DNA from: Clostridiales bacterium | GTDB taxonomy: Bacteria > Bacillota > Clostridia > Saccharofermentanales > Saccharofermentanaceae | Direction of reading: 5' to 3' | Length of the DNA stretch: 64,000 nt | Assembly: GCA_017451265.1 (NCBI GenBank) | Contig: JAFSPU010000003.1 | Coordinates: 310,001-374,000 of the forward strand | Shown: piece by piece, positions 15,461-60,954 of the stretch | Numbering within the stretch: the first letter of the stretch is position 1 | Layout of the letters: each line of letters starts with the position of its first letter | Made by a program: the position numbers and the translations under genes | Notes under the pieces: model-generated | Database searches by the model: none | The model's input: the letters and a program-made list of their open reading frames with translations, nothing else | Told to the model about the DNA's origin: nothing

Positions 15461-15466
15461 TGTATG

Positions 15467-18979: not shown

Positions 18980-20125
18980 TCACTTAAAGATCTTCTTTAC
19001 CTTCTCGAAGAACGAATTCTTCTTCATGTAGTTCTTATCTGTCAGCGACGCATCAAAAGCCTTAAGCAGCTTCTTCTGTTCCTCCGACAGCTTGGTAGGA
19101 ATCTCGACAACGAATCTTACAGTGTGGTCGCCTCTTATGGAAGGCGTATTCTTGTCGGTGATTCCGCGGCTTTTGAAGCTTACCTGGTCACCCGGCTGTG
19201 TGCCGTCCTTGACCATATACTTCATCGGTCCGTCGATAGTAGGAACCTCGATCTCGCCGCCCAGTGCTGCCTGTGCCAGAGTGATCGGAACCTCGCAGAA
19301 AGTATTCCTTCCCTGACGGACGAATACATCGTGCTTTTTTACCTTGAACTCAATGTACAGATTACCCTTGGAACCGCCGTTACGTCCGGGTTCACCCTCA
19401 CCGTAGATCGGCAGCATGTCTCCTGTATCGACACCTGCGGGCACATTTACATGGAGCTGTCTCTTAGTGATCTTGCGACCCTTGCCCGAGCAGTCGGGAC
19501 AGGGTGTTCTGATAACGGTACCGCGGCCGCCGCATGCAGGGCAATCCTTGGTTACCATCGTCATACCAAACAGGGTCTGCGTCTGCGTCTGGATGCGTCC
19601 TCTACCACCGCAGGAAGGGCAAGTCTCGGGGACAGTTCCCTTCTGTGCGCCGGAACCGTTACATGAAGGGCAAAGGTCCTCACGTGAGAAGGTGATGTCC
19701 TTCTCGCAGCCGAATGCCGCCTCCATGAACTCGAGCGTCATGCCGTACTTAAGGTCAGCACCCTTCTGAGGGCCATTACGTCTGCGTGAGGAAGAACCTC
19801 CGAATCCGCCGAACCCGCCTCCGAAGAACGAGTTGAAGATGTCCATCGGATCGAACTCGCCGGAGAAGCCGTAACCGCCTCCGCCGAAGCCGCCGGAACC
19901 GTCAACTGCGCCCTTACCGAACTGGTCGTACTTACGTCTCTTGTCGGCGTCGGACAGAACCGAGTACGCTTCGTTGACGTCCTTAAACTTCTGCTCTGCA
20001 GCCTTATCACCCGGATTAAGGTCCGGGTGATACTGCTTGGCTAATTTACGATAGGCTTTCTTGAGCTCCTCGTCAGAGCAGCCCTTCTGAACGCCTAAAA
20101 TGTCATAATAATCGCCTGATGCCAT
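18980..20125 (-). CDS. dnaJ: Chaperone protein DnaJ
   Basis: At 381 residues this is a type I J-protein: J domain with YHPDLNPGD, a Gly/Phe-rich segment ([16 protein letters not shown]), four zinc-binding CxxCxGxG repeats ([32 protein letters not shown]) and a C-terminal substrate-binding domain. It delivers unfolded clients to DnaK and stimulates its ATPase. It starts 14 bases after dnaK and closes the CIRCE-controlled operon. Confidence 0.97.
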
Positions 20126-20139
20126 CAGTCAGTTTCTCC

Positions 20140-21996
20140 TTAGAAGTCTCCGCCTGCACTCTTGAAGCCGCCTTCCGGAGCATCGCCAGCTGCACCCTGA
20201 TCTGCACCGGGGTTGCCGTAGCCTGCGAAGTCCTCAGGATTAGGAGCTGCACCCTGTGCGCCGCCTGCTGCCTGGTAGAACTTCTCGCCGAGCTTCATGA
20301 GAGCGTTGCTGACATTCTCTGTCTCAGTCTTCATAGCCTCAGTGTCATCCTTTGCGATGGCATCCTTAAGCTTTGTGAGAGCCTCGTTGATTGGAGCCTT
20401 GTCTTCCTCGGAAACCTTGTCGCCGAAGTCAGTCAGAGCCTTCTCTGTCTGGAATACTGTGGACTCAGCCTTGTTCTTGGTCTCGACCTTCTCCTTACGC
20501 TCCTTATCCTCAGCAGCGTGGAGCTCAGCCTCCTTGATAGCCTTCTGGATGTCTTCCTCGCTCATGTTGGAAGAAGCTGTGATAGTGATCTTCTGCTCGC
20601 GTCCCGTGCCCTTATCCTTAGCGGATACGTTTACGATACCGTTGGCATCGATGTCGAATGTAACCTCGATCTGCGGTACGCCGCGGGGTGCAGGTGCGAT
20701 ACCGTCGAGGATGAAGTTACCGAGGCTCTTGTTGTAAGCAGCCATCTCACGCTCACCCTGGAGCACGTGTACGTCAACCTGTGTCTGGTTGTTAGCAGCT
20801 GTGGAGAATACCATGGACTTCTTGGCAGGGATAGTGGTGTTTCTCTCGATCATCTTTGTGAAGATGCCGCCCTCTGTCTCGATACCGAGTGAAAGAGGTG
20901 TAACGTCGAGGAGAACGAGGCCCTTAACATCCCCTGTGAGAACTGCAGCCTGGATAGCAGCACCGATAGCTACGCACTCGTCAGGATTGATGCCCTTGAA
21001 AGGCTCCTTGCCGAAGTAATTCTTAACAGCGTCCTGAACAGCGGGGATTCTTGTGGAACCGCCGACGAGGAGGATCTTGTTGATGTCGTTAGTAGAAAGC
21101 TTAGCATCAGACAGAGCTCTCTTAACGGGATCCATTGTCTTCTGAACGAGGTCAGCTGTGAGTTCATCGAACTTAGCTCTTGTGAGAGTGATGTCCATGT
21201 GCTTAGGACCTGTTGCATCAGCTGTGATGTAAGCGAGGTTGATGTTGGAAGATGTAACACCGGAAAGCTCGATCTTAGCCTTCTCAGCAGCCTCACGGAG
21301 TCTCTGCATAGCCATTCTGTCGTTTCTGAGATCAACACCGTCGGAATTCTTGAAGGAATCTACGAGGAAGTCAACGATCTTGTTATCGAAGTCGTCACCG
21401 CCGAGTCTGTTGTTACCTGCTGTAGCAAGAACCTCGAATACACCGTCGGAGATGTCGAGGATGGATACATCGAATGTACCGCCGCCCAAGTCGAATACAA
21501 GGATCTTCTGATCTTCTTCCTTATCAAGGCCGTAAGCCAGGGAAGCTGCAGTAGGCTCGTTTACGATACGCAGAACCTCAAGGCCTGCGATCTTACCTGC
21601 GTCCTTTGTTGCCTGACGCTGTGAGTCTGTGAAGTAAGCAGGAACTGTGATAACTGCCTGTGTTACGGGCTGGCCGAGATATGCCTCAGCATCACTCTTG
21701 AGCTTTGTGAGGATCATCGCGGAGATCTCCTGAGGAGTGTACTGCTTGTCTGCGATGCTTACCTTATAATCAGAACCCATCTCTCTCTTGATGGACTGTA
21801 TTGTACCGTCAGGGTTTGTTACTGCCTGACGCTTAGCGACCTGTCCGATGAGTCTCTCGCCGTCCTTTGTGAAAGCGACGACTGAAGGTGTTGTTCTGTT
21901 ACCTTCGGGATTAGGGATTACTACTGTCTCCGAACCTTCCATAACCGCTACGCACGAGTTTGTCGTACCGAGGTCAATACCAATTACTTTTGCCAT
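20140..21996 (-). CDS. dnaK: Chaperone protein DnaK (Hsp70)
   Basis: The 618-residue protein starts with [14 protein letters not shown] and has the remaining Hsp70 signatures ([26 protein letters not shown]), the [11 protein letters not shown] linker region, and a C-terminal lid ending in a Gly/Ala-rich tail. The lid tail contains [13 protein letters not shown] in place of the EEVD-like end of eukaryotic forms. It works with DnaJ and GrpE in protein folding. It follows clpP by 20 bases. Confidence 0.98.
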
Positions 21997-22016
21997 TTTT
22001 TATTTCCTCCAAATTC

Positions 22017-22616
22017 TTATTTCTTACTTTCAAGGATCTTGTCTACGATACCGTAGTCAAGTGCTTCCTGTGCTGTCATCCAGTGGTCTCTGTCTGTATC
22101 TCTCATCAGATCCTCGAGAGGTCTGTTACAAGCGTCAGCCAGGATCTGGTTAAGTCTTGTTCTTGTGTCCTTGATGTGCTCTGCAGCAATAAGGATCTCT
22201 GTTGCCTGGCCCTGAGCGCCGCCCAAAGGCTGGTGGATCATTACCTCAGCATTAGGCAGGATGCATCTCTTGCCCTTAGTACCTGCAGCGAGGAGTACGG
22301 AACCCATTGAAGCTGCCATACCCATGCAGATTGTCTGTACGTCAGGCTTGATGAGCTTCATTGTGTCGTAGATCATAAGGCCGTCCGTAACGGATCCTCC
22401 GGGGCTGTTGATATAGAACTGAATGTCCTTATCGGGATCCTCTGCCTCGAGGAAGAGGAGCTGTGCCGTGATAAGGCTTGCTGTTACGTGGTTAACTTCC
22501 TCAGAAAGGATAACGATTCTCTCCTTAAGAAGTCGGGAGTAGATATCATAAGCTCTCTCGCCTCTTGAAGAGGACTCGATTACTGTAGGTACCAGTGAAG
22601 ATCTGATGTCGTACAT
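22017..22616 (-). CDS. clpP: ATP-dependent Clp protease proteolytic subunit
   Basis: The 199-residue serine peptidase has the catalytic serine in [11 protein letters not shown], the histidine in [11 protein letters not shown] and a downstream aspartate in DRDHWM. It forms the tetradecameric barrel that degrades proteins fed by ClpX or ClpC. Normally clpP is alone or next to clpX; here it lies between grpE and dnaK (29 and 20 base gaps), putting it under the CIRCE/HrcA heat-shock promoter. Confidence 0.97.
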
Positions 22617-22645
22617 TTCTTTGTCTCCTTATATAAATAGTTTGA

Positions 22646-23251
22646 TCAGTTAGCTACCTGAACCACCGCATGTCTTACTACGCGGTCCTTGAGGATGTAA
22701 CCCTTCTGGAAAACCTGTGCGATCTGGTTCTCTCCCAGGGAGTCATCCTCCGTATGCATTACAGCTTCATGCAGATTAGGATCGAAAGCCGTTCCGCGCT
22801 CACACTCGATCTCAGTTACATTGATCTTGGCAAGCACATCCTGGGCCTGCTTCTTGATAAGCTCGAGACCCTGAAGCATCTTGTCTTCCTTCTCAGTCTC
22901 CTCTGCCTCGTCTGCAGCTAAAGCTTTCGCGGCGTCGAGCGCACGGTCGATATTATCGAGCACTGACAGCCACTGCTTTGTGACTTCCACTACAGCACTT
23001 GCATACAGGTCATCCTTCTCCTTGGAAGTCCTCTTCCTGAAGTTGTCGTACTCAGCGAAAAGTCTTACGTATCTGTCCTCAAGCTCCCGTATCTTCTTGG
23101 AGTCATCGGAGTCAGAAGCAACCTCTGAAGCTTCAGCCTCTGCTTCCTCTTCTACAGCCTCCTCGGCTGCCTCGTCGAATTCGTCTTCGGAAACCGCATT
23201 GACATCGTCGTCTGCGGGGAACTCAAGAACATCTTTCTCGTCGTCCAACAA
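22646..23251 (-). CDS. grpE: Nucleotide exchange factor GrpE
   Basis: The 201-residue protein has the usual acidic, low-complexity N-terminus (about 1-50), a long coiled coil with AEYDNFRKRTSKEK, and the C-terminal beta domain (VFQKGYILKDRVVRHAVVQVAN). It promotes ADP release from DnaK. It starts 14 bases after hrcA. Confidence 0.97.
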   Translation of the reverse strand: MLDDEKDVLEFPADDDVNAVSEDEFDEAAEEAVEEEAEAEASEVASDSDDSKKIRELEDRYVRLFAEYDNFRKRTSKEKDDLYASAVVEVTKQWLSVLDNIDRALDAAKALAADEAEETEKEDKMLQGLELIKKQAQDVLAKINVTEIECERGTAFDPNLHEAVMHTEDDSLGENQIAQVFQKGYILKDRVVRHAVVQVAN

Positions 23252-23265
23252 TTTGTATTCCTCCC

Positions 23266-24315
23266 TTATCCGTTTATTTTCTTTATCTTCTCGTTGATCT
23301 TGTATCTCACAAAATCAATCTGGGAAATAACTTTGCTGTAGTCCATTCTCTTCGGTCCGATGACTCCGATGTTTCCGGAGATCGTATCACCGACCTTATA
23401 AGTGGTGGTGATGAAGGAACAGTCTTCAAGACCTTCAAGCGCGATCTCCTGACCAATCCTGATCATGTAGGTATCGTCGCCGCCGGTCTTCTCTTTCTCG
23501 ATCTCATTTACATAACCTGCGACCATGCCGTCATGTGAAAGAGTTCCGAGAAGGTTCTGCGCTCTTCTAAGCTCCGAGAAATCCGGAAGCTTGAGCATGT
23601 TGTGCTCGCCTTCAAGGAATACATCCAGGCGGTCTGCCTGCTTGATAGCTGTGTATGTCTCGTAAAGGACCTGATTCAGGATGGAATCCGGAATCTGTGT
23701 CTCCTTTACTGAAGTCGCCAGCGTGATGAGCGTGATCTCGTCCAGAGGTTTGCCGTTAAGGCTCTTCTCGACTGAGTCGGAGATCTCCTTGAGCTGGTCG
23801 GGTGTGAGGAAGTTCGGGATGCGGACTACCTTGTCCTTGACCACGCCTGCCGAGAGCACCATAACCACGAGGGCTTTGCCGGGCTCGATCATGAGGAGCT
23901 TAAGCTGAAGCAGAGAGCTGCCTGCAAGTCTCGGTGTCATTACGAGGGAAACCATGCCTGTGGCCTCAGAGAGGATGGAAGAAGCGTTCTTGAGAAGGTC
24001 TCCTGCCTCGTCCAAGCACTCGTCGATCTTGCGTGAGATCTCATCGCGCTCGCTTGCGGAGAGCTGATCGATCTTCATGAGAGAGTCGACGTACTCCCTG
24101 TAACCTCTGTCAGAAGGAATCCTTCCCGCGGAGGTGTGCGGTTTCTCGATAAGGCCCATGCGCTCGAGCTCTGCCATGTCATTGCGGAGCGTCGCGGAAC
24201 TTACGGGGAACTTGTGGCGCTCGATGAGAGCCTTGGATCCTACGGGCTCGTTGGTGTTGACATAGTCATCTACGATAGCCTGTAAAACCTGCATTTTACG
24301 GTCATTTAAGCCCAT
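23266..24315 (-). CDS. hrcA: Heat-inducible transcription repressor HrcA
   Basis: The 349-residue repressor has an N-terminal winged helix (MGLNDRKMQVLQAIVDDYV, then GSKALIERHKFPVSSATLRNDMAELE) and the C-terminal IDGP-type regulatory domain. It binds CIRCE as a dimer and is kept active by GroEL. An earlier start at 24345 would run into the CIRCE arm; AAAGGAG nine bases before the ATG at 24315 marks the real start. It is first in hrcA-grpE-clpP-dnaK-dnaJ. Confidence 0.96.
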   Translation of the reverse strand: MGLNDRKMQVLQAIVDDYVNTNEPVGSKALIERHKFPVSSATLRNDMAELERMGLIEKPHTSAGRIPSDRGYREYVDSLMKIDQLSASERDEISRKIDECLDEAGDLLKNASSILSEATGMVSLVMTPRLAGSSLLQLKLLMIEPGKALVVMVLSAGVVKDKVVRIPNFLTPDQLKEISDSVEKSLNGKPLDEITLITLATSVKETQIPDSILNQVLYETYTAIKQADRLDVFLEGEHNMLKLPDFSELRRAQNLLGTLSHDGMVAGYVNEIEKEKTGGDDTYMIRIGQEIALEGLEDCSFITTTYKVGDTISGNIGVIGPKRMDYSKVISQIDFVRYKINEKIKKING

Positions 24316-24338
24316 TCTCTGACGCTCCTTTCTCATAA

Positions 24339-24365
24339 TTAGCACTCAAACCCTCTGAGTGCCAA
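24339..24365 (-). promoter_or_regulatory. CIRCE operator
   Basis: TTAGCACTC-N9-GAGTGCCAA matches the HrcA operator consensus with one mismatch in one arm (C for T). It lies just downstream of the -10 box and 24 bases before the hrcA ATG, where bound HrcA would block transcription. Confidence 0.95.
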
Positions 24366-24436: not shown

Positions 24437-25501
24437 TCAGGAAGTCTTTAACTTGTCCGATACGCGGGAGATTAGCTTAAGCCAGCCTGTATATCTTTTA
24501 AAAAGATTCAGGATATACGCACACAGAAAACATAATCCAACGGATACGATGTACTGAAGAGGAACAAACTTAAGTGCACGAAGAAGCCCCGCCGCACTTC
24601 TGAATACCATTGTATGAATAAGAAACATATCAAAAGAGAAACTTCCGAGAACAACAAGGAGTTTTCTAATATATCTGCCGGTAAAGAACAGGTACCCCAG
24701 AATCATCATCGACACCGCGCCGAAAGTATGAAGCATAGACTGAAATCCGTAGCGATCATCAGGGATAATATACCACGCAACATATGGACAAATCGCAGTA
24801 TAAAGAATCAATCCTATACTAAGTGCTGTCTTCAACACAAAAGACATCCTACCAAAAGAACCTTTAAGTTTTCCGAAAACATCATAATGCTGAAACAGCA
24901 CTCCTGCCTCCGCCGCGAAAAGATAAGAGGCATAAGGGCCGCCATAAGGAGAATCCAGCACGACAGGAATAAAACCGTAGAGCAAAACAGTGAGGATCAG
25001 CAGAAGCGGTCCTGTCTTTCTCGTGATTAGATTAATTATAGGCAGAACGAATACAAGAATAAGCGTATAGTTCATGTACCAAAACACGCCGTTAAACATT
25101 TCGAACGGACGTCCGATGATGTCCAGCACAGGTATAACATCACCTAAGAAATAAAGAACGCTCTTGTAATAGAACTTATGATTAACAAGCGAATATAGAA
25201 CATTGACGACAACAAGAGTAAACCAATACGGCGCCAACAACCTCCAAAGACGATACAGGAAATAACGCGGCATAATCTTCTTCGCACCAATACCCACAGA
25301 CATACCAAACGAGCTTAAAAAGCAGAACATATAAACACATATTCTGAAGCAGAAGGCTGTCATCGACAAATCCGCATCAGCCATCACAAGACCATGAGCT
25401 GCAATAAACTCAATATCTCCTACAGTGCGGTACATGTGGTGAAATATCAAAAGAAGGATTGCTATTCCTTTAAGTCTGTTTGTGTCATCTTTACTGAACA
25501 T
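24437..25501 (-). CDS. Acyltransferase family 3 membrane protein
   Basis: The protein of about 354 residues has around ten hydrophobic helices and begins KDDTNRLKGIAILLLIFHHMYR, the acyltransferase-3 opening with its key histidine pair. Members O-acylate cell-surface sugars, peptidoglycan or lipids. The ATG at 25501 is chosen; GTG at 25510 is possible. It is divergent from the GT-C-like gene 52 bases away and may acylate the glycan made by the adjacent locus, but that link is positional only. The region upstream has a TATAAT (rc of 25524-25529) that could be its promoter. Confidence 0.8.
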   Translation of the reverse strand: MFSKDDTNRLKGIAILLLIFHHMYRTVGDIEFIAAHGLVMADADLSMTAFCFRICVYMFCFLSSFGMSVGIGAKKIMPRYFLYRLWRLLAPYWFTLVVVNVLYSLVNHKFYYKSVLYFLGDVIPVLDIIGRPFEMFNGVFWYMNYTLILVFVLPIINLITRKTGPLLLILTVLLYGFIPVVLDSPYGGPYASYLFAAEAGVLFQHYDVFGKLKGSFGRMSFVLKTALSIGLILYTAICPYVAWYIIPDDRYGFQSMLHTFGAVSMMILGYLFFTGRYIRKLLVVLGSFSFDMFLIHTMVFRSAAGLLRALKFVPLQYIVSVGLCFLCAYILNLFKRYTGWLKLISRVSDKLKTS

Positions 25502-25537
25502 CTGCAACACTCTTTTTTATTCATTATATTGCAAACA

Positions 25538-25546
25538 TGCTATAAT
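25538..25546 (+). promoter_or_regulatory. Extended -10 promoter for leaderless start of the GT-C-like gene
   Basis: TGC-TATAAT is followed by seven bases (tgcttct) and the ATG at 25554. There is no Shine-Dalgarno before this ATG, and the frame N-terminal to it carries no likely start. Confidence 0.55.
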
Positions 25547-25553
25547 TGCTTCT

Positions 25554-27155
25554 ATGAATAAACTTGATGACAGGCGCGTTGAAGAACTGTTCCCTCCCAT
25601 TCTCTTTCTGTTTCTGGGAACGTTCATAACCATATTCTATTTTGCAGTCCACGGTGACAATCTCGTAAGCTCCGACAGTGCAGCCGACCTTATTCTCGCA
25701 CGCGTTCTGTGCAGAGACGGCGGTCTCATGTCCAAGAACTGGTTCTATTCGACAGAACTTCTTACATTGGATGTCCAGCTTATCTTCAAGCCCTGCTACG
25801 CTTTATTCCCGAATGACTGGCATATGGCAAGACTTCTTGCACACAGCATACTTATGATCCTTTATATCGCGCCGATGATCTGGTTCGTCAAAGTCTCTAA
25901 GATCGGACCCAAGGGACTGTGGGCCGTTGCTCTGTGTTCATTCCCCATAGGATACGGTTATGTAATCACGATGTCTTGGTCGATGTGCTATGTATCGTAT
26001 TTCTTCTTTACCTTTATCACCTTCGGCATTCTCCTGCTCGCATTAAGGTCAAAGGATAAAACCGTTCTGTACACAATTCTGATCGTAATCTTCTCGTTCA
26101 TTTCCGGAATGAGAACTATCAGAGCCATCATGCAGATCAACATGCCTCTTGTCGCCGTCGCGGTATTCATGCTGTTATGCAGAGCATTCCGCGACCGTAT
26201 GAAGATTGCTCCTTCAATGATCCGTAATATCGACAAACCGCTTCTTAAGTATTCGGTCATCATGATGATCTCTGCGGCAGCAGGTTACGTCTTCAACTCC
26301 GTTGCATTACTGAATAACTTCCATTACTTCAGTCAGAATGATGAGAGCTACTGGCAGCCTTTCTCAATTCACAGCATCCTTAAAGTAATAAGCGATATGA
26401 TCGCTTCTTACGGCTGGCATGAGAAGACAAAGATCTTAAGCGTTGAAGGTTTGTCTTCATGCTGTGCTCTGCTGCTCGGTCTGGCTGTAGTCGTGTCGGT
26501 CGTTCTTCTGCTGTTTAAGTATTCACATCTGTTAAGCGACAGCGAATATATCCTTGTTCTTTATACATTCGCCGCCGTTGTTATATCAGTCTTTATATTC
26601 GCGCACTGCGACATCTACGCCACATGGCACTGGGTAACACTTATGCCATTCGGCTATCTGTGTCTGTCGATCGCGATAAAGTATCTGTGCATCCTTTTCA
26701 AGCCTTTGCAGAAGATGAGATACGGTGTCATTCTCGGAGCACTCATCGTCTTCATAAGTATGTCCTGGATCGTCGGTCCTTACTTCGGACCCGGTAAAAT
26801 GGATAACGATACTCTTATCCCCGTTATCGAATGGCTTGAAGAGAACGGTTACGACAGAGGCGTTGCCACTTTCTGGAACAGCAATGTCACGACCGAATTA
26901 TCAGACGGCCGCATCGAGATGTGGTCGGTAAGAGGATTCGGTACTATGAATGCATATGAGTGGCTTCAGGAAACATCTCATTCAGAGCTCCCTGACGGAA
27001 ACGTTTTTGTCCTTATCAACAAGAAAGAATATGAGACTCTGGATTCAGGAATCGAAGACTACATCGTTTATCAGGTTCCAGACTTTACAGTACTCGCTTT
27101 CGACGAAGGAACTGACTACGTGTCCATAATCACCGGCTCTTATACCGGCAAGTAA
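25554..27155 (+). CDS. Multi-pass membrane protein, probable GT-C-type glycosyltransferase
   Basis: The protein has about 533 residues, around ten to eleven membrane helices and a C-terminal soluble domain of about 110 residues. After the first helix an exported loop contains GDNLVSSDSAADLILARVL, with acidic residues where GT-C enzymes keep their catalytic Asp. This is the architecture of GtrC/ArnT-like transferases, which move a sugar from a polyprenyl-phosphate carrier to a surface polymer. The neighbouring GtrB-like, ArnE/F-like and WecE-like genes fit that role. Its stop is immediately followed by the convergent stop of the next gene, with no bases between. Confidence 0.6.
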   Translation: MNKLDDRRVEELFPPILFLFLGTFITIFYFAVHGDNLVSSDSAADLILARVLCRDGGLMSKNWFYSTELLTLDVQLIFKPCYALFPNDWHMARLLAHSILMILYIAPMIWFVKVSKIGPKGLWAVALCSFPIGYGYVITMSWSMCYVSYFFFTFITFGILLLALRSKDKTVLYTILIVIFSFISGMRTIRAIMQINMPLVAVAVFMLLCRAFRDRMKIAPSMIRNIDKPLLKYSVIMMISAAAGYVFNSVALLNNFHYFSQNDESYWQPFSIHSILKVISDMIASYGWHEKTKILSVEGLSSCCALLLGLAVVVSVVLLLFKYSHLLSDSEYILVLYTFAAVVISVFIFAHCDIYATWHWVTLMPFGYLCLSIAIKYLCILFKPLQKMRYGVILGALIVFISMSWIVGPYFGPGKMDNDTLIPVIEWLEENGYDRGVATFWNSNVTTELSDGRIEMWSVRGFGTMNAYEWLQETSHSELPDGNVFVLINKKEYETLDSGIEDYIVYQVPDFTVLAFDEGTDYVSIITGSYTGK

Positions 27156-27506
27156 TTACCACAACGAATATACGACTATTCCGATCAGGATGACTGCGAT
27201 TCCTGATATCTTTTTGGCATTGAGTTTTTCATGGAAGAATATGATTCCGAACGCGGTCACAAACAGGTATCCCGTCGAGTCAAGTATAGGTCCATAAGAT
27301 AACGGTATCCCCTTAAAAGCATAGACCGTCATAAAAGTAGCCGCCACAAACAATGCGTAAGCCGCGATAACAAAAGGATTCAAATATTCCTGCACAAAAC
27401 CTTTTCGGGGGGTGAGGGCAGACTTCTTAAGCAGCACCTGCGAAAAGGAGCTTATAAAGACGCCGGCAACGAGGACAGCCGAATAGAAAAGGACACCGTT
27501 ATTCAT
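27156..27506 (-). CDS. EmrE/ArnF-like small membrane transporter, subunit 2
   Basis: The 116-residue protein has four helices of the DMT/SMR type, with GIPLSYGPILDSTGYLFVTAFGIIFFHEKL in the second half (written here in two parts: helix 3 GIPLSYGPILDS and helix 4 start FGIIFFHEKL). ArnE/ArnF proteins of this size flip undecaprenyl-phosphate-aminoarabinose as a pair. It overlaps the preceding SMR gene by 8 bases, typical of a heterodimer pair. Export of the amino-sugar-lipid made by this locus is inferred. Confidence 0.7.
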   Translation of the reverse strand: MNNGVLFYSAVLVAGVFISSFSQVLLKKSALTPRKGFVQEYLNPFVIAAYALFVAATFMTVYAFKGIPLSYGPILDSTGYLFVTAFGIIFFHEKLNAKKISGIAVILIGIVVYSLW

Positions 27507-27873
27507 CTGTCTCTTTCTCCCCCAGCGAGAACAGCACTATACCCGCGATAACTATAACAGCTCCCAGCACCTTATTCGGCGTGACTTCTTCCGAGAAAAG
27601 TATATATCCCCATATAAGCCCCCATATGACCGTCACGGCCTTATTGGCGTACGCGAATACCAGCGGCAGATGCTTGAGCACCTGCTGCCAAATAACCGCA
27701 TATACACCGAGCAGAAGTATCATGCCGCCGTAAACGCCGCAGAACTTGATGCTCAGGAAATCCTCTCCCGAGGCGTATTTACTTAATACCGTGCTTAATG
27801 AATAGATTATGAAAGCGGCATGAAGCACCGCTATCCAGACAAGGGACTTCTTATCATTCTTTGCTTCCGTCAT
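27499..27873 (-). CDS. EmrE/ArnE-like small membrane transporter, subunit 1
   Basis: From the ATG at 27873 the protein has 124 residues and four helices, with LVFAYANKAVTVIWGLIWG and FSEEVTPNKVLGAVIVIAG, as in SMR/DMT half-transporters. The frame opens farther upstream, but that part lies inside the aminotransferase gene; the chosen start overlaps its last 20 bases, suggesting coupling. It pairs with the next gene. A flippase for a polyprenyl-linked sugar is the most likely role from context. Confidence 0.7.
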   Translation of the reverse strand: MTEAKNDKKSLVWIAVLHAAFIIYSLSTVLSKYASGEDFLSIKFCGVYGGMILLLGVYAVIWQQVLKHLPLVFAYANKAVTVIWGLIWGYILFSEEVTPNKVLGAVIVIAGIVLFSLGEKETDE

Positions 27874-28996
27874 GATAAAAACCTGCGATTGCCTTCGCGA
27901 CAGCAGCTGCATCTTCATCAGAAAGGAAGTAATGCATCGGGAGGCGCAGAAGTCTCTCACTCTCGGATGTCGTGTATTTATCTTCACCGTCGAAGCGGCC
28001 AAACTTCAATCCTGCTTCCGCACTGTGAAGCGGAACATAATGGAAAACCGTCAGTATATCAAGGCCCTTAAGATAAGCTATAAGCTTCTGTCTCCCATCG
28101 AGATCCGCAGTCTTGATATAGAAGATATGCGCATTATGAGTTATCCCTTCGGGAGCAACAGGAAGTTCTATATATCCTTCATCAGCCAGAGGCTTCAGAA
28201 GTTCGTAATACATATTCCATAAATGCATTCTTTTGCCATAAAGCCCGTCCGCATTCTCGAGCTGTCCCCACAGGAATGCGCACAGTATGTCGGAAGGCAG
28301 ATATGACGATCCCACATCAACCCATGAATACTTCGCGATTTCACCTCTGAAGTACTTGGATCTGTTGGTACCCTTCTCTCTTAAGATCTCGGCTCTCTCG
28401 ATATCGGCCGGATTGTTAACGAGCAGTGCTCCTCCTTCGCCCATCGAATAGTTCTTGGTCTCGTGGAATGAATAGCAGCCGAAGTCGCCAAACGTACCGA
28501 GAGCTTTGCCGTGATACTTGCTCATGACTCCCTGTGCCGCATCTTCGATGACCTTGAGATCATGCTGCTTCGCTATTCTCATAATCTCATCCATCTCACA
28601 TGCAACACCCGCGTAGTGAACGCACATTATGGCTTTAGTTCTGGATGTGATGGCCGACTCTATCTTCGTCTCATCTATATTCATGGTATCAGGACGCACA
28701 TCGATGAATACACATTTGGCGCCCGCTCTTACAACTGCGTTCGCAGTGCTGGAGAAAGTGAAGCTCGGCAGTATTACCTCATCACCTTCTCCGATATTGC
28801 AAAGAAGCACTGCCATCTCGAGTGCAGCTGTTCCGGAAGTAGTCATAAGACATGCCGGACAGCCTGTGGTTTCCTCGAACCACTTCCTGCATTTCGCCGT
28901 GTACTCACCGTCGCCGCTGTGATAGTGATTGTTCAAAGCCTTTGTAACATGCTTGATGCAATTATCGTCTGAATACGGTCTGTTAAAGTCAATCAT
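27854..28996 (-). CDS. wecE: WecE-like dTDP-4-keto-6-deoxyglucose aminotransferase
   Basis: The 380-residue DegT/AryC1-family PLP enzyme closely follows E. coli WecE as I recall it: IDFNRP at the start, DEVILPSFTFSSTANA, DVRPDTMNIDE, VHYAGVACEMDEIM, EDAAQGVMS, SFHETKNYSMGEGGA (PLP lysine in ETKN) and REKGTNRS. WecE transfers an amino group to dTDP-4-keto-6-deoxy-D-glucose, giving dTDP-4-amino-4,6-dideoxygalactose (dTDP-Fuc4N). No rmlA/rmlB are nearby, so the precursor comes from elsewhere in the genome. It follows the glycosyltransferase by 4 bases. Confidence 0.85.
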   Translation of the reverse strand: MIDFNRPYSDDNCIKHVTKALNNHYHSGDGEYTAKCRKWFEETTGCPACLMTTSGTAALEMAVLLCNIGEGDEVILPSFTFSSTANAVVRAGAKCVFIDVRPDTMNIDETKIESAITSRTKAIMCVHYAGVACEMDEIMRIAKQHDLKVIEDAAQGVMSKYHGKALGTFGDFGCYSFHETKNYSMGEGGALLVNNPADIERAEILREKGTNRSKYFRGEIAKYSWVDVGSSYLPSDILCAFLWGQLENADGLYGKRMHLWNMYYELLKPLADEGYIELPVAPEGITHNAHIFYIKTADLDGRQKLIAYLKGLDILTVFHYVPLHSAEAGLKFGRFDGEDKYTTSESERLLRLPMHYFLSDEDAAAVAKAIAGFYHDGSKE

Positions 28997-29000
28997 AGTC

Positions 29001-29921
29001 TTATTTATTCTTGATCTCTCTTACTATGTACAGCGGGCGGTCCTTGGACTGCATAAAGATCTTTCCGATATAGATTCCCGCGATTCCGTTGGAAGATATG
29101 ATAAGCCCTCCGACGAGAAGCACGATTGCGATAACACTCGTCCAGCCCGGATCGATATCGGCAACAAAATACTGAATAACCAGGAATACGATATACAGAA
29201 ATGCTATCAGCGTAAGACCGAAGCCCACATACGCGGATACTCTCAGCAGGGAATCCGACTGGGATGTAAGTATATCCTCCGCGAGTCTCAACTTCTTCAT
29301 GAATGTATATGAAGACTTGCCTTCCTTACGCGGATCAGTCTCGATATCAATAAACGCCTGCTTATATCCCATCCAGCAGATATATGTCGAATACTCTCTG
29401 TGGTACTCTCTCATATCGCAGAAGCTCTTGATGACAGCCTTTGTACATACGGAGAAGTTACCTATCTCGGGATCATACTTAAATCCGGAAAGCTTCTCGT
29501 ATATCTTGTAATACACCTTGGAAACGAATTTCTTGAAGCCGGTATCTTTCCTCTCCTTACGCATTCCGAATACGACATCGTATCCTTCTTTTGCCTTGAG
29601 ATAGAGTTTCTTCAGCTCTTCCGGTCTGTCCTGAAGATCGCAGTCCATAACGGCAATATAATCGCCTGATGCGTGATCAAGTCCTGCCGTGATCGCCTTA
29701 CTCTGACCGAAGTTTCTGGACAAATCGATACCGACTACCTTCTTATCCTGTGATGTGATCTCGTCTATAACAGACCATGAACCCTGGGGGCAGGCGTCAT
29801 TGACAAAAATAATCTCATACTCAGCGGTAATATCGGATAAAGTCGCCGTTAAGCGTTCATACAGTTCACGAACCGCTGCTTTGCATCCGTATACAGGAAT
29901 TACAACTGAAATATCCATCAC
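29001..29921 (-). CDS. GtrB/ArnC-like polyprenyl-phosphate glycosyltransferase
   Basis: The 306-residue family 2 transferase has the GT-A start DISVVIPVYG, a VNDACPQGSW loop and the DCDLQDRPEE metal-binding motif (about 101-104), then two C-terminal membrane helices (about 236-258 and 268-290). This layout is that of ArnC, GtrB and DPM-type enzymes, which attach a sugar to undecaprenyl phosphate on the cytoplasmic face. Its likely donor here is the amino sugar made by the WecE-like enzyme. The ATG lacks a strong Shine-Dalgarno and lies 14 bases after the ATP-grasp gene. Confidence 0.88.
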   Translation of the reverse strand: MMDISVVIPVYGCKAAVRELYERLTATLSDITAEYEIIFVNDACPQGSWSVIDEITSQDKKVVGIDLSRNFGQSKAITAGLDHASGDYIAVMDCDLQDRPEELKKLYLKAKEGYDVVFGMRKERKDTGFKKFVSKVYYKIYEKLSGFKYDPEIGNFSVCTKAVIKSFCDMREYHREYSTYICWMGYKQAFIDIETDPRKEGKSSYTFMKKLRLAEDILTSQSDSLLRVSAYVGFGLTLIAFLYIVFLVIQYFVADIDPGWTSVIAIVLLVGGLIISSNGIAGIYIGKIFMQSKDRPLYIVREIKNK

Positions 29922-29935
29922 ATTACCCGCCAGAA

Positions 29936-31078
29936 TTACTCGCTCTCAGGCATAAATCCCGCAATAAGATCTCTGTCCGAAGAAGCCATTATATAATATC
30001 CTTTTCGGGTGGAACTATCAATTATCGAGGACAGGTCGCCGCGTCTGTCATCGACCTCATACAGCACATCGGGATACCCGCTTCTGATCGTCTTAAGACA
30101 ATCCTCGGCAGCATCATCGGTAATGTATCTGATCGCCGCCGCCCTGTTGATACTCCCGGTAAACTCTTCAGGCTTATCTCCCAGGCACACATCGATAACG
30201 GCTTTGATGAAGTCATATCCTGTCGACAGCTGAACCAGAGTGCTTCCTATCATATCGCCGCCCATTCTCGCACCGATCTCGATGACCTTGATATCATCAC
30301 CGTTAACCTTGAGTTCCGAATGAGACGCACCGTACTTTACCTGCAGCGCATCAAGACCGTTGAAGACAATCTGTCTTACCTTCTCGATCTGCATATCACT
30401 TAAGTCAGACGGCTCGATATGTCCGGTCTCTATGTAGTGAGGATCGCCTGTAGTATATTTCTTCGTAACGGCAAGAAGCGTGTGCTTACCTTCATACGAG
30501 ATGCACTCCACACTGTACTCATCGCCGTACACATATTCTTCTATCAAAGCTCTCTTCTCGAGGCTCTGCTCTATAGCTCTTACAACAGCCTCTTTAATAT
30601 CATCATCTGCGGAATTAAGACGCGTAACGCCGCGGCTTCCCGAACGGTCTGTGGGCTTTACGATAAGCGGATAACCCATATCGCTTACATCAGGTATCAC
30701 ACCATCTTCTACAAGTCTGCATACGGCAGCAGGAACGTTGCCAGCCATGAAAGCCTTCTTCATAGAATACTTGTTAACCGACGACAAAGAGCTCTCTATG
30801 CTGTTGCTTACAAGGCCCATGTTCTGAGCGACATAACATACCGTCAGCACTGCAAGATCCGAAGCGATACTGCAGATACCGTCGATTCCGATCTTCCTGC
30901 ATTCTTCAAGGATCCGCTCTTTCTCGACTATGCTTATCGGGTAAAAAACATCCGCTTCTTTCTCACCGACATCACCGCACTCCCATGCGAAAACATGAGT
31001 CTCAAGACCCATCGATTTTGCTTTTCTGATCAGGGGAAGCTGGAGGTATGAAGCGCCGATTATTGCTATCTTTCTCAT
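29936..31078 (-). CDS. ATP-grasp carboxylate-amine ligase
   Basis: The 380-residue protein (true start MRKIAIIGASYLQLPLIRKA) has a Rossmann-like preATP-grasp domain and an ATP-grasp fold: YPLIVKPTDRSGSRGVTR, IEEYVYGDEYSVE and VIEIGARMGGD. It resembles CarB/PurK-related ligases that join a carboxylate to an amine. In this locus the amine could be the 4-amino sugar, with an amino or hydroxy acid as the acyl donor; this is inference from position. The ATG has no Shine-Dalgarno and TATACT lies seven bases before it. It is the first gene of the five-gene minus-strand operon. Confidence 0.8.
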   Translation of the reverse strand: MRKIAIIGASYLQLPLIRKAKSMGLETHVFAWECGDVGEKEADVFYPISIVEKERILEECRKIGIDGICSIASDLAVLTVCYVAQNMGLVSNSIESSLSSVNKYSMKKAFMAGNVPAAVCRLVEDGVIPDVSDMGYPLIVKPTDRSGSRGVTRLNSADDDIKEAVVRAIEQSLEKRALIEEYVYGDEYSVECISYEGKHTLLAVTKKYTTGDPHYIETGHIEPSDLSDMQIEKVRQIVFNGLDALQVKYGASHSELKVNGDDIKVIEIGARMGGDMIGSTLVQLSTGYDFIKAVIDVCLGDKPEEFTGSINRAAAIRYITDDAAEDCLKTIRSGYPDVLYEVDDRRGDLSSIIDSSTRKGYYIMASSDRDLIAGFMPESE

Positions 31079-31085
31079 ATAACGA

Positions 31086-31114
31086 AGTATATTAAACAAA
31101 ATCCATAAACACAA
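31086..31114 (-). promoter_or_regulatory. Promoter of the ATP-grasp/amino-sugar operon, leaderless
   Basis: TTGTGT (31109-31114), 17 bases, TATACT (31086-31091), seven bases, ATG. The -35 lies inside the end of hemW. Confidence 0.5.
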
Positions 31115-32180
31115 GATTCGCGAAGTCGAGGCCCCTGCGCGAGAGGCAGTAACCTGAAGGCGTCTGCTCCAGGTAGCCGAGCTTAAGGTTCTTCTGGATC
31201 TCATCAGGAAATCCTTCTGCAAGTTCACGGCTCACACCCGCACTCGTCCTTAACGCGAGCATGCATTTCTCTTTTATCTTATCCTGCTCCGTGAGCACTT
31301 CTTCCGTGATGCGTTTCAGCGGGTCAGCGATATACTCTTCGATGCTCTCGGGGTGCGCGAACCTCTCCGAATTCAGATACCCGTGCGCGCCTGCACCGAA
31401 AGCATAGTACTCAGACCCGCTCCAGTACGAAAGATTATGCCGGCTCTCGTACCCCGGGAAAGCGCAGTTTGAGATCTCATACGGGATGAGCCCGCGCTCC
31501 GCTAGGAAGTCACGCAGGCCATGGTACATCTTTCTCTCCAGTTCCTCGTCAACATACTCGCCCAGCCTGTCCCCGTACAGCTTCTCGAAAGGTGTCCCCT
31601 CCTCGATCATAAGTGAGTATATACTGATGTGTTTCGCGCCCGCGTTTATAAGAAGCTGCGCGTCCTCGTAAAGGTCCGCGAGAGTCTGCCCCGGCACGCC
31701 TGTAATTAGGTCGCACGAAATATTATTGAACCCCGCATTCTTCGCATTTCCTATGGCTGCCAGCGCCTCCTGTCTGTCATGCAGCCTGCCCAGGGTCTTC
31801 AGCACGTCATCATGCAGTGACTGCACTCCGATCGAGATGCGGTTAAAGCCCGCCTCCAGGTACCGCCTCCCCTTGCCTTCATCAAAAGAATTCGGGTTAA
31901 CCTCCACGGTGAACTCGCCGTCGTCTATCGAGAACCAGTGTCGCAAAGACTTGAGCGCACTGCACACATAAGATGCTTCCGCAAACGACGGCGTACCTCC
32001 CCCGAAGTAAATGGTATCTGCACCGCCATCTGCTTCTGCAGAACATATCACGGGCTGCTCCAGGATCTCCTTCTCAAGCGCCTCGAAATACTCCTTCATC
32101 TGCGGCTTGCCCACCACGGAATAGAACCCGCAGTACGGGCACTTGCGCGCGCAGTAAGGGATGTGAACATAGATGTGCAT
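31092..32180 (-). CDS. hemW: Radical SAM heme chaperone HemW (HemN-like)
   Basis: The 362-residue protein starts with HIPYCARKCPYCGF, giving the radical-SAM cluster motif CxxxCxxC at C10, C14 and C17, and continues with IYFGGGTPSF, GVQSL and SYWSGSEYYAFGAGAH. It lacks the extra N-terminal arm of true coproporphyrinogen dehydrogenase HemN and so is best called HemW. It overlaps the stop of the TOPRIM-like gene by one base (TGATG), so it is translated as part of the ATPase operon. In many Bacillota hemW lies between lepA and hrcA. Confidence 0.9.
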   Translation of the reverse strand: MHIYVHIPYCARKCPYCGFYSVVGKPQMKEYFEALEKEILEQPVICSAEADGGADTIYFGGGTPSFAEASYVCSALKSLRHWFSIDDGEFTVEVNPNSFDEGKGRRYLEAGFNRISIGVQSLHDDVLKTLGRLHDRQEALAAIGNAKNAGFNNISCDLITGVPGQTLADLYEDAQLLINAGAKHISIYSLMIEEGTPFEKLYGDRLGEYVDEELERKMYHGLRDFLAERGLIPYEISNCAFPGYESRHNLSYWSGSEYYAFGAGAHGYLNSERFAHPESIEEYIADPLKRITEEVLTEQDKIKEKCMLALRTSAGVSRELAEGFPDEIQKNLKLGYLEQTPSGYCLSRRGLDFANLVFMDFV

Positions 32181-32884
32181 CAGAATGTTGTCCTGTGTAC
32201 GCCGGGACGCGGCATGGAAGGTATGGGAGCGGAGTTTCTAAGCGCAGTCAGCAGCGCATTCTTGAAGGTCTGAAAACTCGGAGAGACGTTGCTGCCGGGT
32301 TCCATGTAAGGCGAGATCGCCTCCGCCCACCTGGCCTTGTAGTGGCCGATAGCGGGGTACCCGATCTCGATGATGTCTTCGTAGTTATAAGGGAACGTAA
32401 CGCGGCACAGAGTTTCCCATGTGCCGCATATGCTGTCCTGCACATAATCCTTGTACGCATTCAGGTCCGCGTCAGGGTAAGCCTTAAGCACAGCATCGAT
32501 ATCACCCAGAAGCCAGGACTCGACCTCCTCGGTGCAAAGCCCGATTACGGACCTTATGTCACGCGCATACTTCTTGCACACGCGGTACAGTTCCTGCCGA
32601 AGCTCGTCGGGAACGTTATTATCGGAGTCTATTATCACGACTAAAATGGTGTCGGTATTTCCGTAGACTTTGTTGTAAGCGCGGCACTTTGCCGGGAGCA
32701 GATCAAGAAGCGAGCTCGCAAACTTAACGGGACGCGTGTCCCAATCCTTGGGCAGGCTTCCGCAGCCTCTGTGAGGTCTTACTGCGTGTGTCGCGTCTAT
32801 CTTCTCTTCTTCGAGAAGTCTCGTCACGAGACGCTCAACTACGACCGCACCGGATCTGTCTTCTGTCAGTATCTCAATGTGCAT
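32180..32884 (-). CDS. TOPRIM-like DUF4276-type protein
   Basis: The 234-residue protein opens HIEILTEDRSGAVVVERLV, with an acidic residue where TOPRIM folds have their catalytic glutamate (E8), followed by VVIIDSDNN (D86 and D88, the DxD pair) and CTEEVESWLLGD. This matches DUF4276-type TOPRIM proteins that are usually paired with AAA ATPases in OLD-like, predicted defence loci. It overlaps the ATPase gene upstream by 11 bases and hemW downstream by one base. Nuclease activity is inferred from the fold assignment. Confidence 0.65.
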   Translation of the reverse strand: MHIEILTEDRSGAVVVERLVTRLLEEEKIDATHAVRPHRGCGSLPKDWDTRPVKFASSLLDLLPAKCRAYNKVYGNTDTILVVIIDSDNNVPDELRQELYRVCKKYARDIRSVIGLCTEEVESWLLGDIDAVLKAYPDADLNAYKDYVQDSICGTWETLCRVTFPYNYEDIIEIGYPAIGHYKARWAEAISPYMEPGSNVSPSFQTFKNALLTALRNSAPIPSMPRPGVHRTTF

Positions 32885-34079
32885 TGTTTATGCCTTCGTC
32901 ATCGTACTCGCTCGAGCCCTGGTCAAGGTGGCCGCCGTACCAGATTGCGCCCATGCCTACGCCCTGCTCTGTCAACGCCATAACGACAGGATCGGAACCT
33001 GCGCATGTGATCTTTACATCGGCCTTCTCGTAGTCTTCCTCGTCATCTCTGGAGAACACCCAGATCTCCTTCGGAGACATCGACTCCACGATGTAAGGAT
33101 TATGTGTGGAGAAGATGATCTGCGAGTACGGATGTCTTAATGTAAACTCGCGCATATCGTCTGCAAGAACATCGACCATGTCATGGTAAAGATCCCTGTC
33201 AGGAGTCTCTATGAAGATAGTCGACTTCGGCTCAGGATCTCTTAACAGGAGCAGGTATTTAAACAGCTTCTCGGGACTGCCCTGAAGGTTCATGGGAAGA
33301 TGCTTTTTCTTCTTCCGCATGGTGGGGATCTTGGAGTTGATCTCATCCATGAGATCTTCGTATGTATCGTCTCCCAGGGATTTGATATAGTCGAGCACAT
33401 TACCTACATTGCTGCCCTCGGAATTAAGATGCTTGTGACCGCCGGGTGCATTTCCCGCGGAGAAATAATCAGATGATTCCTCGGCAGAGAAAGCGCAGAA
33501 GAACCAGCCGTTGATCTCGTTCATGAGAAGCTTGATGGGGTCATCGCTTCCGTTCAGTCTTCCGAGGACGCTTAAGGCCGTGATGCGGTCATCGTTTATA
33601 AGTCTTGCTTCAGAAGAATTCGTATATACTTCCCTGACTTCTATCTTACCGTCTTCTCCGCGCACGGAAGAGAGAACTCTCTCATTCTCGATATACGGGC
33701 TGCCCTGTGCACTAGCGCCGACTGTGAGTTCATACTGAAGGAAATCGGACTTCTTCGTATTCGGATCCATGATCCTGAAGAAGATACTGAACGAAGCAGG
33801 CTTATCTTTATCGACCAGAAGGTTCATGAATCCGGGTCTGTTGTCGGTAGTTGAAGCCTTGCCGACATCTGTGATGATGCATCTTTTAACAAATGAAAGA
33901 GCTCTTATGAATGCACTTTTTCCGGTGTTGTTCCTTCCGATAAGCGCATTGAGATTTCTAAGTCTAATTCCCTGTTCAGACGGCGCCGTTCCGGCATACT
34001 GAGCGGAGTCGCCGATCATCATTCCAACTGTATCATCCGTGAACACATCGAAGTTCTTAATATTAACTCCCAGGATCAT
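32874..34079 (-). CDS. AAA15-type (OLD/RecF-like) ATPase
   Basis: The 401-residue protein has an SMC/RecF-like N-terminus with Walker A GRNNTGKS (48-55), a variable insert, and the C-terminal ATPase half with PEKLFKYLLLLRDPEPKSTIFIETPDRDL (Walker B TIFIETPD) and SQIIFSTHNPYIVESM, the typical 'STHSP' switch. OLD-family ATPases couple this module with a TOPRIM nuclease, here encoded separately by the next gene. GGAGGG precedes the ATG. It heads the operon with the TOPRIM-like gene and hemW. A phage-defence role is plausible but unproven. Confidence 0.78.
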   Translation of the reverse strand: MILGVNIKNFDVFTDDTVGMMIGDSAQYAGTAPSEQGIRLRNLNALIGRNNTGKSAFIRALSFVKRCIITDVGKASTTDNRPGFMNLLVDKDKPASFSIFFRIMDPNTKKSDFLQYELTVGASAQGSPYIENERVLSSVRGEDGKIEVREVYTNSSEARLINDDRITALSVLGRLNGSDDPIKLLMNEINGWFFCAFSAEESSDYFSAGNAPGGHKHLNSEGSNVGNVLDYIKSLGDDTYEDLMDEINSKIPTMRKKKKHLPMNLQGSPEKLFKYLLLLRDPEPKSTIFIETPDRDLYHDMVDVLADDMREFTLRHPYSQIIFSTHNPYIVESMSPKEIWVFSRDDEEDYEKADVKITCAGSDPVVMALTEQGVGMGAIWYGGHLDQGSSEYDDEGINNAH

Positions 34080-60953: not shown

Positions 60954-60954
60954 A

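Follow-up and report, generated by a model that had tools for sequence, protein, structure and literature searches.

A WecE-linked ATP-grasp ligase in a compact cassette proposed to cap and export a 4-amino sugar in a rumen bacterium

Why would a rumen bacterium carry an ATP-grasp ligase gene at the head of an operon that otherwise looks devoted to making and moving a sugar? The question is raised by a compact gene cassette in 64 kb of DNA from a Clostridiales bacterium (contig JAFSPU010000003.1, positions 310,001 to 374,000), a stretch that is called the window throughout. The cassette brings the ATP-grasp gene together with genes for a WecE-type aminotransferase, a glycosyltransferase (GT2), two small SMR-like proteins, a large membrane protein, and an acyltransferase. 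The answer proposed here, which we hold to be slightly better than an even bet, is that the cassette would make and export a single modified (capped) amino sugar. The central observation is that the ATP-grasp and WecE genes are paired across genomes beyond what chance would produce. The seven genes, in window coordinates, are as follows.

29936..31078, minus strand: ATP-grasp carboxylate-amine ligase (ATG start; Pfam PF13535, 76 bits)
29001..29921, minus strand: GtrB/ArnC/PgfS-like GT2, proposed undecaprenyl-phosphate sugar synthase (PF00535, 102.4 bits; two C-terminal membrane segments)
27854..28996, minus strand: WecE, dTDP-4-amino-4,6-dideoxygalactose (Fuc4N) transaminase (above the PRK11706 and TIGR02379 cut-offs)
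27499..27873, minus strand: SMR-like subunit 2 (SMR2), proposed flippase half (EamA, 25.4 bits, below the gathering threshold of 28.2; the longer reading frame was scanned)
27156..27506, minus strand: SMR-like subunit 1 (SMR1), proposed other flippase half (EamA, 32.1 bits, threshold 28.2; Multi_Drug_Res, 23.8 bits, threshold 23.7)
25554..27155, plus strand: orphan membrane protein, candidate extracytoplasmic GT-C transferase (11 hydrophobic segments; motif residues)
24437..25510, minus strand: acyltransferase_3 protein, optional O-acylation gene (PF01757, 78.9 bits)

All seven open reading frames (ORFs) had been listed in an earlier, sequence-only reading of the window, and all are present; the ATP-grasp gene starts at 31078, so the limit of 31114 given earlier was slightly too far. 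On the minus strand the order is hemW (a flanking gene), ATP-grasp, GT2, WecE, SMR2, and SMR1, with spacings of 13, 14, 4, -20, and -8 bases. Such short gaps and the two overlaps (20 and 8 bases) make a single transcription unit from hemW to SMR1 likely, and the earlier description, in which an ATP-grasp gene leads GT2, WecE, and a pair of SMR genes that overlap, holds for both ORFs and spacing. The membrane protein gene, on the opposite strand, abuts the SMR1 stop codon in convergent orientation, and the acyltransferase_3 gene is divergent from it. The membrane protein ORF opens with a GTG at 25482, and its likely start is the ATG at 25554, which matches the starts in two relatives (L063 and L064).

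Which sugar would be made? The window WecE scores 573.9 bits against PRK11706 (cut-off, 375) and 555.7 bits against TIGR02379 (cut-off, 434.85), and it falls far short of cut-off against both ArnB and PseC. Its best solved relatives, PDB entries 4piw/4zah and 6blg, are both named dTDP-4-amino-4,6-dideoxygalactose transaminase. RmlB (501 bits) and RmlA (478 bits), both above cut-off, are encoded next to each other elsewhere in the same genome (G000:C2:81924-83817), which is 69.5% complete. With WecE above its curated cut-offs and with RmlA and RmlB present, dTDP-Fuc4N is the expected product, and the 4-amino-4,6-dideoxyhexose of the Fuc4N type that had been suggested for this locus is thereby upheld.

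How closely is the ATP-grasp gene tied to this sugar? When public genomes were searched with the ATP-grasp protein as the query, 75 loci were obtained, many of them broken by contig ends. WecE, counted by phmmer at more than 300 bits, is found within 48 of the 75 loci, not all 48 having been put to the curated cut-off, and lies no more than 300 bp from the ATP-grasp gene in 27. Sequence extends for 5 kb on both sides in 44 loci, and 31 of these contain WecE. Of the 27 genomes lacking WecE in the locus, 20 encode it above the TIGR02379 cut-off elsewhere. The SMR pair accompanies the ATP-grasp gene in 26/75 loci, and WecE, the SMR pair, and GT2 occur together in 20/75. The sequence-only reading had staked its case on such co-occurrence in other genomes, and this neighborhood search finds it.

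The same pairing is seen among 113 genomes of the bacterium's own family, where WecE is above cut-off in 36 and a close ATP-grasp ortholog is present in 17, every one of which (17/17) falls within the 36. A close ortholog means a match of more than 500 bits with profile A1, a threshold set after a gap from 518 to 275 bits had been seen; the Fisher P value of 1.4e-10 for 17/17 versus 36/113 is indicative only, the genomes being related and the threshold post hoc. Weaker ATP-grasp matches (best scores, 142 to 275 bits) occur in 11 further family genomes, 9 of them with WecE. One genome (G111) was scored negative for both genes yet holds part of the cassette, on a contig that ends inside WecE. 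The two samples overlap in L063, L064, and L065 (G077, G014, and G028). In mirror-tree comparisons, ATP-grasp and WecE distances correlate with an r of 0.46 over 49 loci (window included) and of only 0.32 in the 21 loci that have all five genes. The ATP-grasp family is found in Bacillota, Actinomycetota, Spirochaetota, Bacteroidota, and Cloacimonadota, although some of the records are metagenome bins that possibly include stray contigs. A 3.8-kb contig with WecE and ATP-grasp in a Methanosphaera bin (L082) is possibly a stray bacterial contig.

What, then, happens to the amine that WecE installs? Fuc4NAc of the enterobacterial common antigen (ECA) follows a polymer route, in a branch consisting of RmlA/RffH, RmlB/RffG, WecE, and WecD. 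The window resembles this branch in having WecE above cut-off together with RmlA and RmlB. It differs in that no WecD above cut-off is found in the genomes tested, the window operon having the ATP-grasp gene instead, and in what is apparently export on a lipid phosphate rather than the ECA polymer route. WecD is above cut-off in 0/113 family genomes (the Escherichia coli control was positive), with weak matches to this acetyltransferase model in 69/113. In the window's own genome, at its 69.5% completeness, there is no match at all. Among the 50 locus genomes scanned (of the 75 loci), none has WecD above cut-off, and there is one weak match of 56 bits. A 2020 survey reports Fuc4NAc in Gammaproteobacteria only (PMC7725333). 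Given that restriction and the lack of WecD above cut-off, the occurrence of WecE in the absence of WecD seems to have gone unnoticed in these groups.

ATP-grasp enzymes couple a carboxylate to an amine using ATP. Since dTDP-Fuc4N has an amine and no carboxylate, the acid must come from another source. The window enzyme has an ATP-grasp_4 domain (PF13535, 76 bits against a cut-off of 27). Its best PDB match is 4dim, which is labelled only as phosphoribosylglycinamide synthetase, a role that we take as presumptive. The window enzyme's nearest characterized relatives, the L-amino-acid ligases BL00235 and BacD, rank after 4dim. It shares with these two ligases the ATP-grasp_4 domain and four aligned residues, E217, E255, E267, and R271, that are invariant in all 61 rows of alignment A1; H220 is His in 56/61 and is aligned to a His in BacD only. 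These five are taken to have catalytic-type roles. It differs from the two ligases in being shorter, in its link to WecE genes, and in an N-terminal ETHVFAWE stretch that is invariant in 61/61 rows and is absent from 4dim, the sole one of three PDB alignments to cover that place. The neighbors also point to amino acids. A second ATP-grasp gene, whose cluster representative (L088) carries the C-terminal LAL_C2 domain, is near the first in 15/75 loci, and an ornithine cyclodeaminase-like gene is near it in 4/75 (families of neighbor clusters rest on Pfam scans of cluster representatives). The cluster count of 15/75 is used because the phmmer query with an L-amino-acid ligase (LAL) matched all 75 loci, since it also matches the ATP-grasp gene itself. 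On this basis, the enzyme probably amidates the 4-amine of dTDP-Fuc4N, and probably with an amino acid, much as had been suggested at the outset: it is tied to WecE across phyla, and its nearest characterized relatives are amino-acid ligases. Among the open-licence PubMed Central papers listed in the searches, none was recognized in which an ATP-grasp enzyme is tested together with WecE or with Fuc4N as its substrate, and the passages of PMC2824669, PMC11167607, and PMC9933511 have no bearing on the matter. CA_C2189 of Clostridium acetobutylicum, near a sialic-acid-synthase-type gene, has been labelled an ATP-grasp amino acyl ligase (PMC4000134).

Could the cap be something other than an amino acid? 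Under the same cassette logic, formate, a hydroxy acid, or acetate could be placed on the Fuc4N amine, a reading that we consider unlikely though by no means far-fetched. PurT is an ATP-grasp enzyme that N-formylates its substrate, and Arn sugars are formylated prior to lipid linking. The match of the ATP-grasp family to PurT is a weak one, and the 69.4 bits that the window enzyme scores against BL00235 are far above the 23.2 bits against PurT. ACP-synthase-III-like genes (ACP, acyl carrier protein) lie near WecE in two WecE loci without ATP-grasp (L168 and L173), which suggests that acyl caps may vary among WecE loci; the genome of L168 (G001) has its ATP-grasp gene on another contig. Set against this alternative are also the LAL-type ATP-grasp and ornithine cyclodeaminase-like neighbors, and an amino acid stays the preferred cap.

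At what stage would the cap be added? The ATP-grasp and WecE genes stay paired both where a locus has the SMR pair and where it does not, and capping is therefore probably carried out on the nucleotide sugar. It is quite unlikely that the enzyme has a later or separate task, which would be to act on the sugar once it is lipid linked or on an amino acid that the sugar already bears, or to make a dipeptide for another enzyme to attach. A hexapeptide transferase is encoded near the ATP-grasp gene in 15/75 loci and could do the first acylation, and the second ATP-grasp genes would permit stepwise peptide building. The window operon, however, has one ATP-grasp gene and lacks genes of the hexapeptide or GNAT type, and the invariance of ETHVFAWE across loci with and without lipid-export genes fits a single sugar-nucleotide substrate.

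The sugar itself may not be the same everywhere. In two family genomes (G001 and G028), a different DegT-family aminotransferase is directly upstream of the ATP-grasp gene (L181, 6436-7566, and L182, 125-1222; 100 and 116 bits to PF01041) and WecE is on another contig, so the sugar there may be other than Fuc4N. Five loci (L068, L069, L092, L104, and L114) also encode an NDP-hexose 2,3-dehydratase together with a reductase of the GFO/IDH/MocA type, as assigned by Pfam on the L092 representatives, and there the 4-amino sugar is probably further deoxygenated. A short-chain dehydrogenase/epimerase lies near the ATP-grasp gene in 18/75 loci by clustering (21 by phmmer), including L066, L078, L079, L086, L104, and L136, and is absent from the window operon.

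How might the capped sugar leave the cell? Toward its C terminus, GT2 carries a pair of hydrophobic segments (residues 231-249 and 263-281), and its best models are PgfS (210.6 bits; cut-off, 500) and then ArnC (164.1 bits; cut-off, 529), both under cut-off. SMR1 and SMR2 have four hydrophobic segments each and opposite charge bias. SMR1 has one lysine or arginine on its N-terminal side and five on the other, so that its N terminus is predicted to be outside; SMR2 has five and two, with its N terminus predicted inside. In a review of the family, adjacent SMR pairs with opposite bias are the antiparallel-pair pattern, and lipid-type SMR proteins often have Asn replacing the central Glu (PMC9574504). 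Segment 1 is free of acidic residues in both window subunits. Across the alignments (27 rows each, window included), an acid falls within predicted segment 1 in 12 rows for SMR1, near its start, and in 11 for SMR2, where the acids are scattered and three are mid-segment. The charge bias, the gene overlap, and the acid-free first segments fit a heterodimeric lipid-sugar flippase, which is the role proposed here and the one first suggested for the two overlapping genes. In the review's genome set, lipid SMRs are singletons, so a paired lipid SMR is unlike that set, though ArnE/ArnF are also two genes (PMC9574504).

Might these export genes serve some other sugar, with dTDP-Fuc4N entering an ordinary polymer repeat? 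No SMR pair is seen with ATP-grasp in 49/75 loci, and there are examples of Bacillus-type loci with group 1 glycosyltransferases. In the window, however, the genes are intermingled within a single compact operon that contains no further gene for making a sugar, and we regard a split of this kind as very unlikely. That the genes are mere neighbors, with an SMR pair that exports drugs or metabolites and an ATP-grasp enzyme from another pathway, is hardly credible: SMR1 does score higher against EbrA than against ArnE (31.9 versus 23.7 bits, all below cut-off), but, besides the acid-free segments, the overlap, and the recurrence of the pair already described, in 17/75 loci a GT2 gene is separated from an SMR gene by no more than 400 bp, and SMR2 distances track ATP-grasp distances with a Mantel r of 0.71 over 21 loci (SMR1/SMR2 r, 0.89).

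The large membrane protein is the candidate for the last step, transfer outside the cell. It has 11 segments, an Asp65 after segment 1, and W87, Y89, S90, and E92, all invariant in 14 homologues (numbered from the GTG at 25482). A homologue is present in 15/115 family genomes, 4 of them close (at least 52% identity; its own genome, G014, G077, and G111), and the tail-to-tail arrangement with SMR1 also occurs in G014, G077, and G111. Speaking against a GT-C transferase is the lack of a match to any family in PDB, Pfam, or NCBIfam searches, as is a weak hhalign comparison with YfhO (29.6%; reversed control, 9.3%). The GT-C label rests, then, on topology and one motif. Of the large GT-C-like protein described earlier, the 11-segment membrane protein stands and the GT-C assignment has partial support at most, being kept here as that of a candidate. 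The YfhO alignment spans the Asp region after helix 1, with the Asp of the membrane protein one column off that of YfhO, and one other profile match covers the same region. The best profile match (83.6%; reversed control, 17.9%), also weak, is to an unnamed membrane family over 101 columns in the C-terminal half of the window's membrane protein, and two further membrane families reach a weak 15.5% each (reversed controls, 3.7% and 2.8%). YfhO-like proteins themselves are found by phmmer in 7/75 ATP-grasp loci (representative, PF09586) and near WecE in G001, G017, and G095. Their presence near ATP-grasp and WecE lends support to a three-component scheme, of the kind by which lipoteichoic and wall teichoic acids are glycosylated (PMC7389260, PMC11127046).

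The acyltransferase had been counted as a member of the set. Its gene is present in the window, and no AT3 (acyltransferase_3) match occurs at the corresponding position in the closest three relatives that carry the cassette (L174, L186, and L187); it was therefore rejected as a core part. Low-score AT3-like genes are found in 3/75 loci, and a looser cluster spans 4/75 loci plus the window.

Put in order, the proposed pathway would run as follows. RmlA and RmlB would supply dTDP-4-keto-6-deoxyglucose, which WecE, as its sequence supports, would aminate to dTDP-Fuc4N. The ATP-grasp enzyme, taking the place of WecD, would activate a carboxylate with ATP, that of an amino acid most likely, and couple it to the 4-amine. 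By three-component logic, GT2 would then load the capped sugar onto undecaprenyl phosphate, the SMR1/SMR2 pair would flip it to the outside, and there the large membrane protein would pass it to an extracellular acceptor, either a wall polymer or a protein.

Several points weigh against this scheme. No WecE above the thresholds is found for 7 of the 75 loci (two with 369-bit matches and five with none at an E value of 1e-60). Within the family, 19 of the 36 WecE genomes have no close ATP-grasp ortholog, and in G002 and G010 the two genes are on separate contigs. WecE-type genes in Bacteroidota and Cloacimonadota loci score just ~308 to 385 bits by phmmer, and the counts throughout are of nonindependent events in related genomes. 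The separate aminotransferases of G001 and G028 belong here too, as do the hexapeptide transferases mentioned above, which could themselves acylate the amine, and the chance that the cap acid is not an amino acid. The window enzyme has no Pfam match to LAL_C2, the C-terminal domain; this domain is not known to be universal among characterized L-amino-acid ligases.

Which known systems does the cassette resemble? The Arn pathway has the same order of events: amination, capping, ArnC-like lipid linking, a paired SMR flippase, and external transfer. It differs in its sugar, UDP-Ara4N (with Ara4N on lipid A) versus dTDP-Fuc4N, and in formyl transfer by ArnA where the window has ATP-grasp. Membership in Arn, as an Arn-like line-up might imply, was rejected: the cassette proteins are far below cut-off for ArnB (181 versus 631 bits), ArnC (164 versus 529), ArnE (23.7 and 27.3 versus 92), and ArnF (18.8 and 17.5 versus 99), and none of the seven proteins matches ArnA, ArnD, or ArnT in Pfam or NCBIfam (for WecE and ATP-grasp, among the best 25 NCBIfam matches; the rest of the genome was not searched). 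With Gtr, CsbB-GtcA-YfhO, and Streptococcus mutans Pgf the cassette shares a GT2 with two C-terminal helices, a small proposed flippase, and a large membrane protein that is a candidate external transferase; PgfS is the best-scoring GT2 model, and YfhO-like proteins recur in the related loci, as mentioned. The differences are the paired SMR in place of GtrA/GtcA, the GT-C candidate without a known family, and a donor that would be a capped 4-amino sugar. Within the cassette, there are EamA/SMR matches and no GtrA/GtcA flippase, the search for GtrA having been confined to the cassette.

The closest parallel for the capping step comes from another clostridial organism, Clostridioides difficile. 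On its type B flagellin, the amine of a terminal Fuc3N is acylated by taurine-Ala-Gly (PMC5207245). The locus CDR20291_0241-0247 includes genes for a PF13535 ATP-grasp enzyme, an ornithine cyclodeaminase-like protein, and an FdtB-like aminotransferase, and mutants in the first two are without the terminal sugar unit (PMC5207246). The likenesses are a dTDP-linked (FdtB-like) amino-dideoxygalactose, a PF13535 ATP-grasp enzyme needed for the terminal peptidylamido sugar, and an ornithine cyclodeaminase-like partner of the kind found near 4/75 ATP-grasp genes here. The differences are the 3-amino sugar Fuc3N with an FdtB-like enzyme versus WecE and Fuc4N, an acceptor that is flagellin, and, in the passages on that locus, no description of an SMR pair or GT-C protein. 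By this analogy the window cassette would be a WecE/Fuc4N counterpart of the flagellin system, the two ATP-grasp enzymes being likened by family and description.

The place of the cassette in the genome bears on the capping role as well. It occupies the variable gap from hemW to hrcA, is not part of the heat-shock operon, and is bordered by the following features.

31092..32180, minus strand: hemW, upstream flank (same flank in L064/L174 and L063/L187; close to hrcA in cassette-free relatives)
23266..24345, minus strand: hrcA, downstream flank (also the flank in relatives)
24339..24365, plus strand: CIRCE-type operator of the hrcA operon (one match, 1 mismatch, 0.04 expected)
24398-24370, minus strand: promoter-like TTGACA-17-TATCTT, on the heat-shock operon side

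The name hrcA agrees with the CIRCE site. With the CIRCE-type and promoter-like sites beside it, hrcA seems to keep its own control apart from the cassette. Both flanks are seen beside the cassette in G014, the hemW side in G077 (hrcA is on another contig), and the hrcA side in G111. In the gap between the membrane protein gene and hrcA, where the window has the acyltransferase, G111 has a GT2-like ORF and nothing was scored in G014. Among 30 hrcA loci examined with 1.5-kb flanks (of 75 matches), 16 have a hemW ORF upstream of hrcA at a distance of no more than ~660 bases (~50 bases in G079), so the cassette is absent from those 16. Other genomes have other genes there. G095 has a methyltransferase-like gene, WbqC, GT2, and WecE, with a 626-residue protein, YfhO, and an SMR pair on the opposite strand; G012 has GT2 and a 495-residue protein; and G030 has an AcrB-type protein. 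From these differing contents, the junction exchanges surface genes. In G095, the slot between hemW and GT2 is filled by the methyltransferase-like gene and WbqC in place of ATP-grasp (a literature search on WbqC gave nothing useful). The slot varies while WecE, GT2, and the SMR pair are kept, and a capping role for the slot is thereby favored.

Other features of the window lie outside the cassette. The heat-shock operon at 18980-24345 reads hrcA-grpE-clpP-dnaK-dnaJ, and the order hrcA-grpE-clpP is found in 30/30 hrcA loci. Between hemW and coaD, at 32180-34079, the gene for a protein resembling DUF4276 (24.7 bits, under its cut-off) overlaps that for an AAA_21 ATPase, and the best PADLOC models of the two are those of the candidate defense pair HEC-01 (215 and 192 bits); the pair also adjoins hemW in G014, G077, G030, and G079. 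A T-box leader (15214-15461, minus strand; Rfam RF00230, 110 bits) is directly upstream of a PALP-type pyridoxal phosphate enzyme (13790-15157). At 57108-63879 are two large adjacent proteins, one a UvrD-helicase plus PD-(D/E)XK protein and the other a second PD-(D/E)XK nuclease, with the look of an AddAB-type pair.

Overall, the ETHVFAWE family may be made up of ligases that specifically place an aminoacyl or peptidyl group on dTDP-Fuc4N and similar 4-amino sugars, and that replace WecD outside enterobacteria. In the window's group the enzyme would feed an SMR-flipped, lipid-phosphate route of extracytoplasmic decoration ending in the display of amino-acid-capped Fuc4N, and the cap slot would be swapped among strains at the hemW-hrcA junction. 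We put this broader claim, tentatively, at a little short of even. What would it mean? Many gut and rumen bacteria have WecE without WecD, and part of these have a specific ATP-grasp partner, so that a large, unassigned ATP-grasp family gains a function that can be tested. The proposal predicts aminoacyl sugars on the surfaces of gut bacteria, and it would tie a sugar-capping step to an SMR-type lipid flippase outside enterobacteria. If it is true, the cells would display amino-acid-capped Fuc4N by way of a lipid phosphate flipped by an SMR pair, as an extracytoplasmic decoration.

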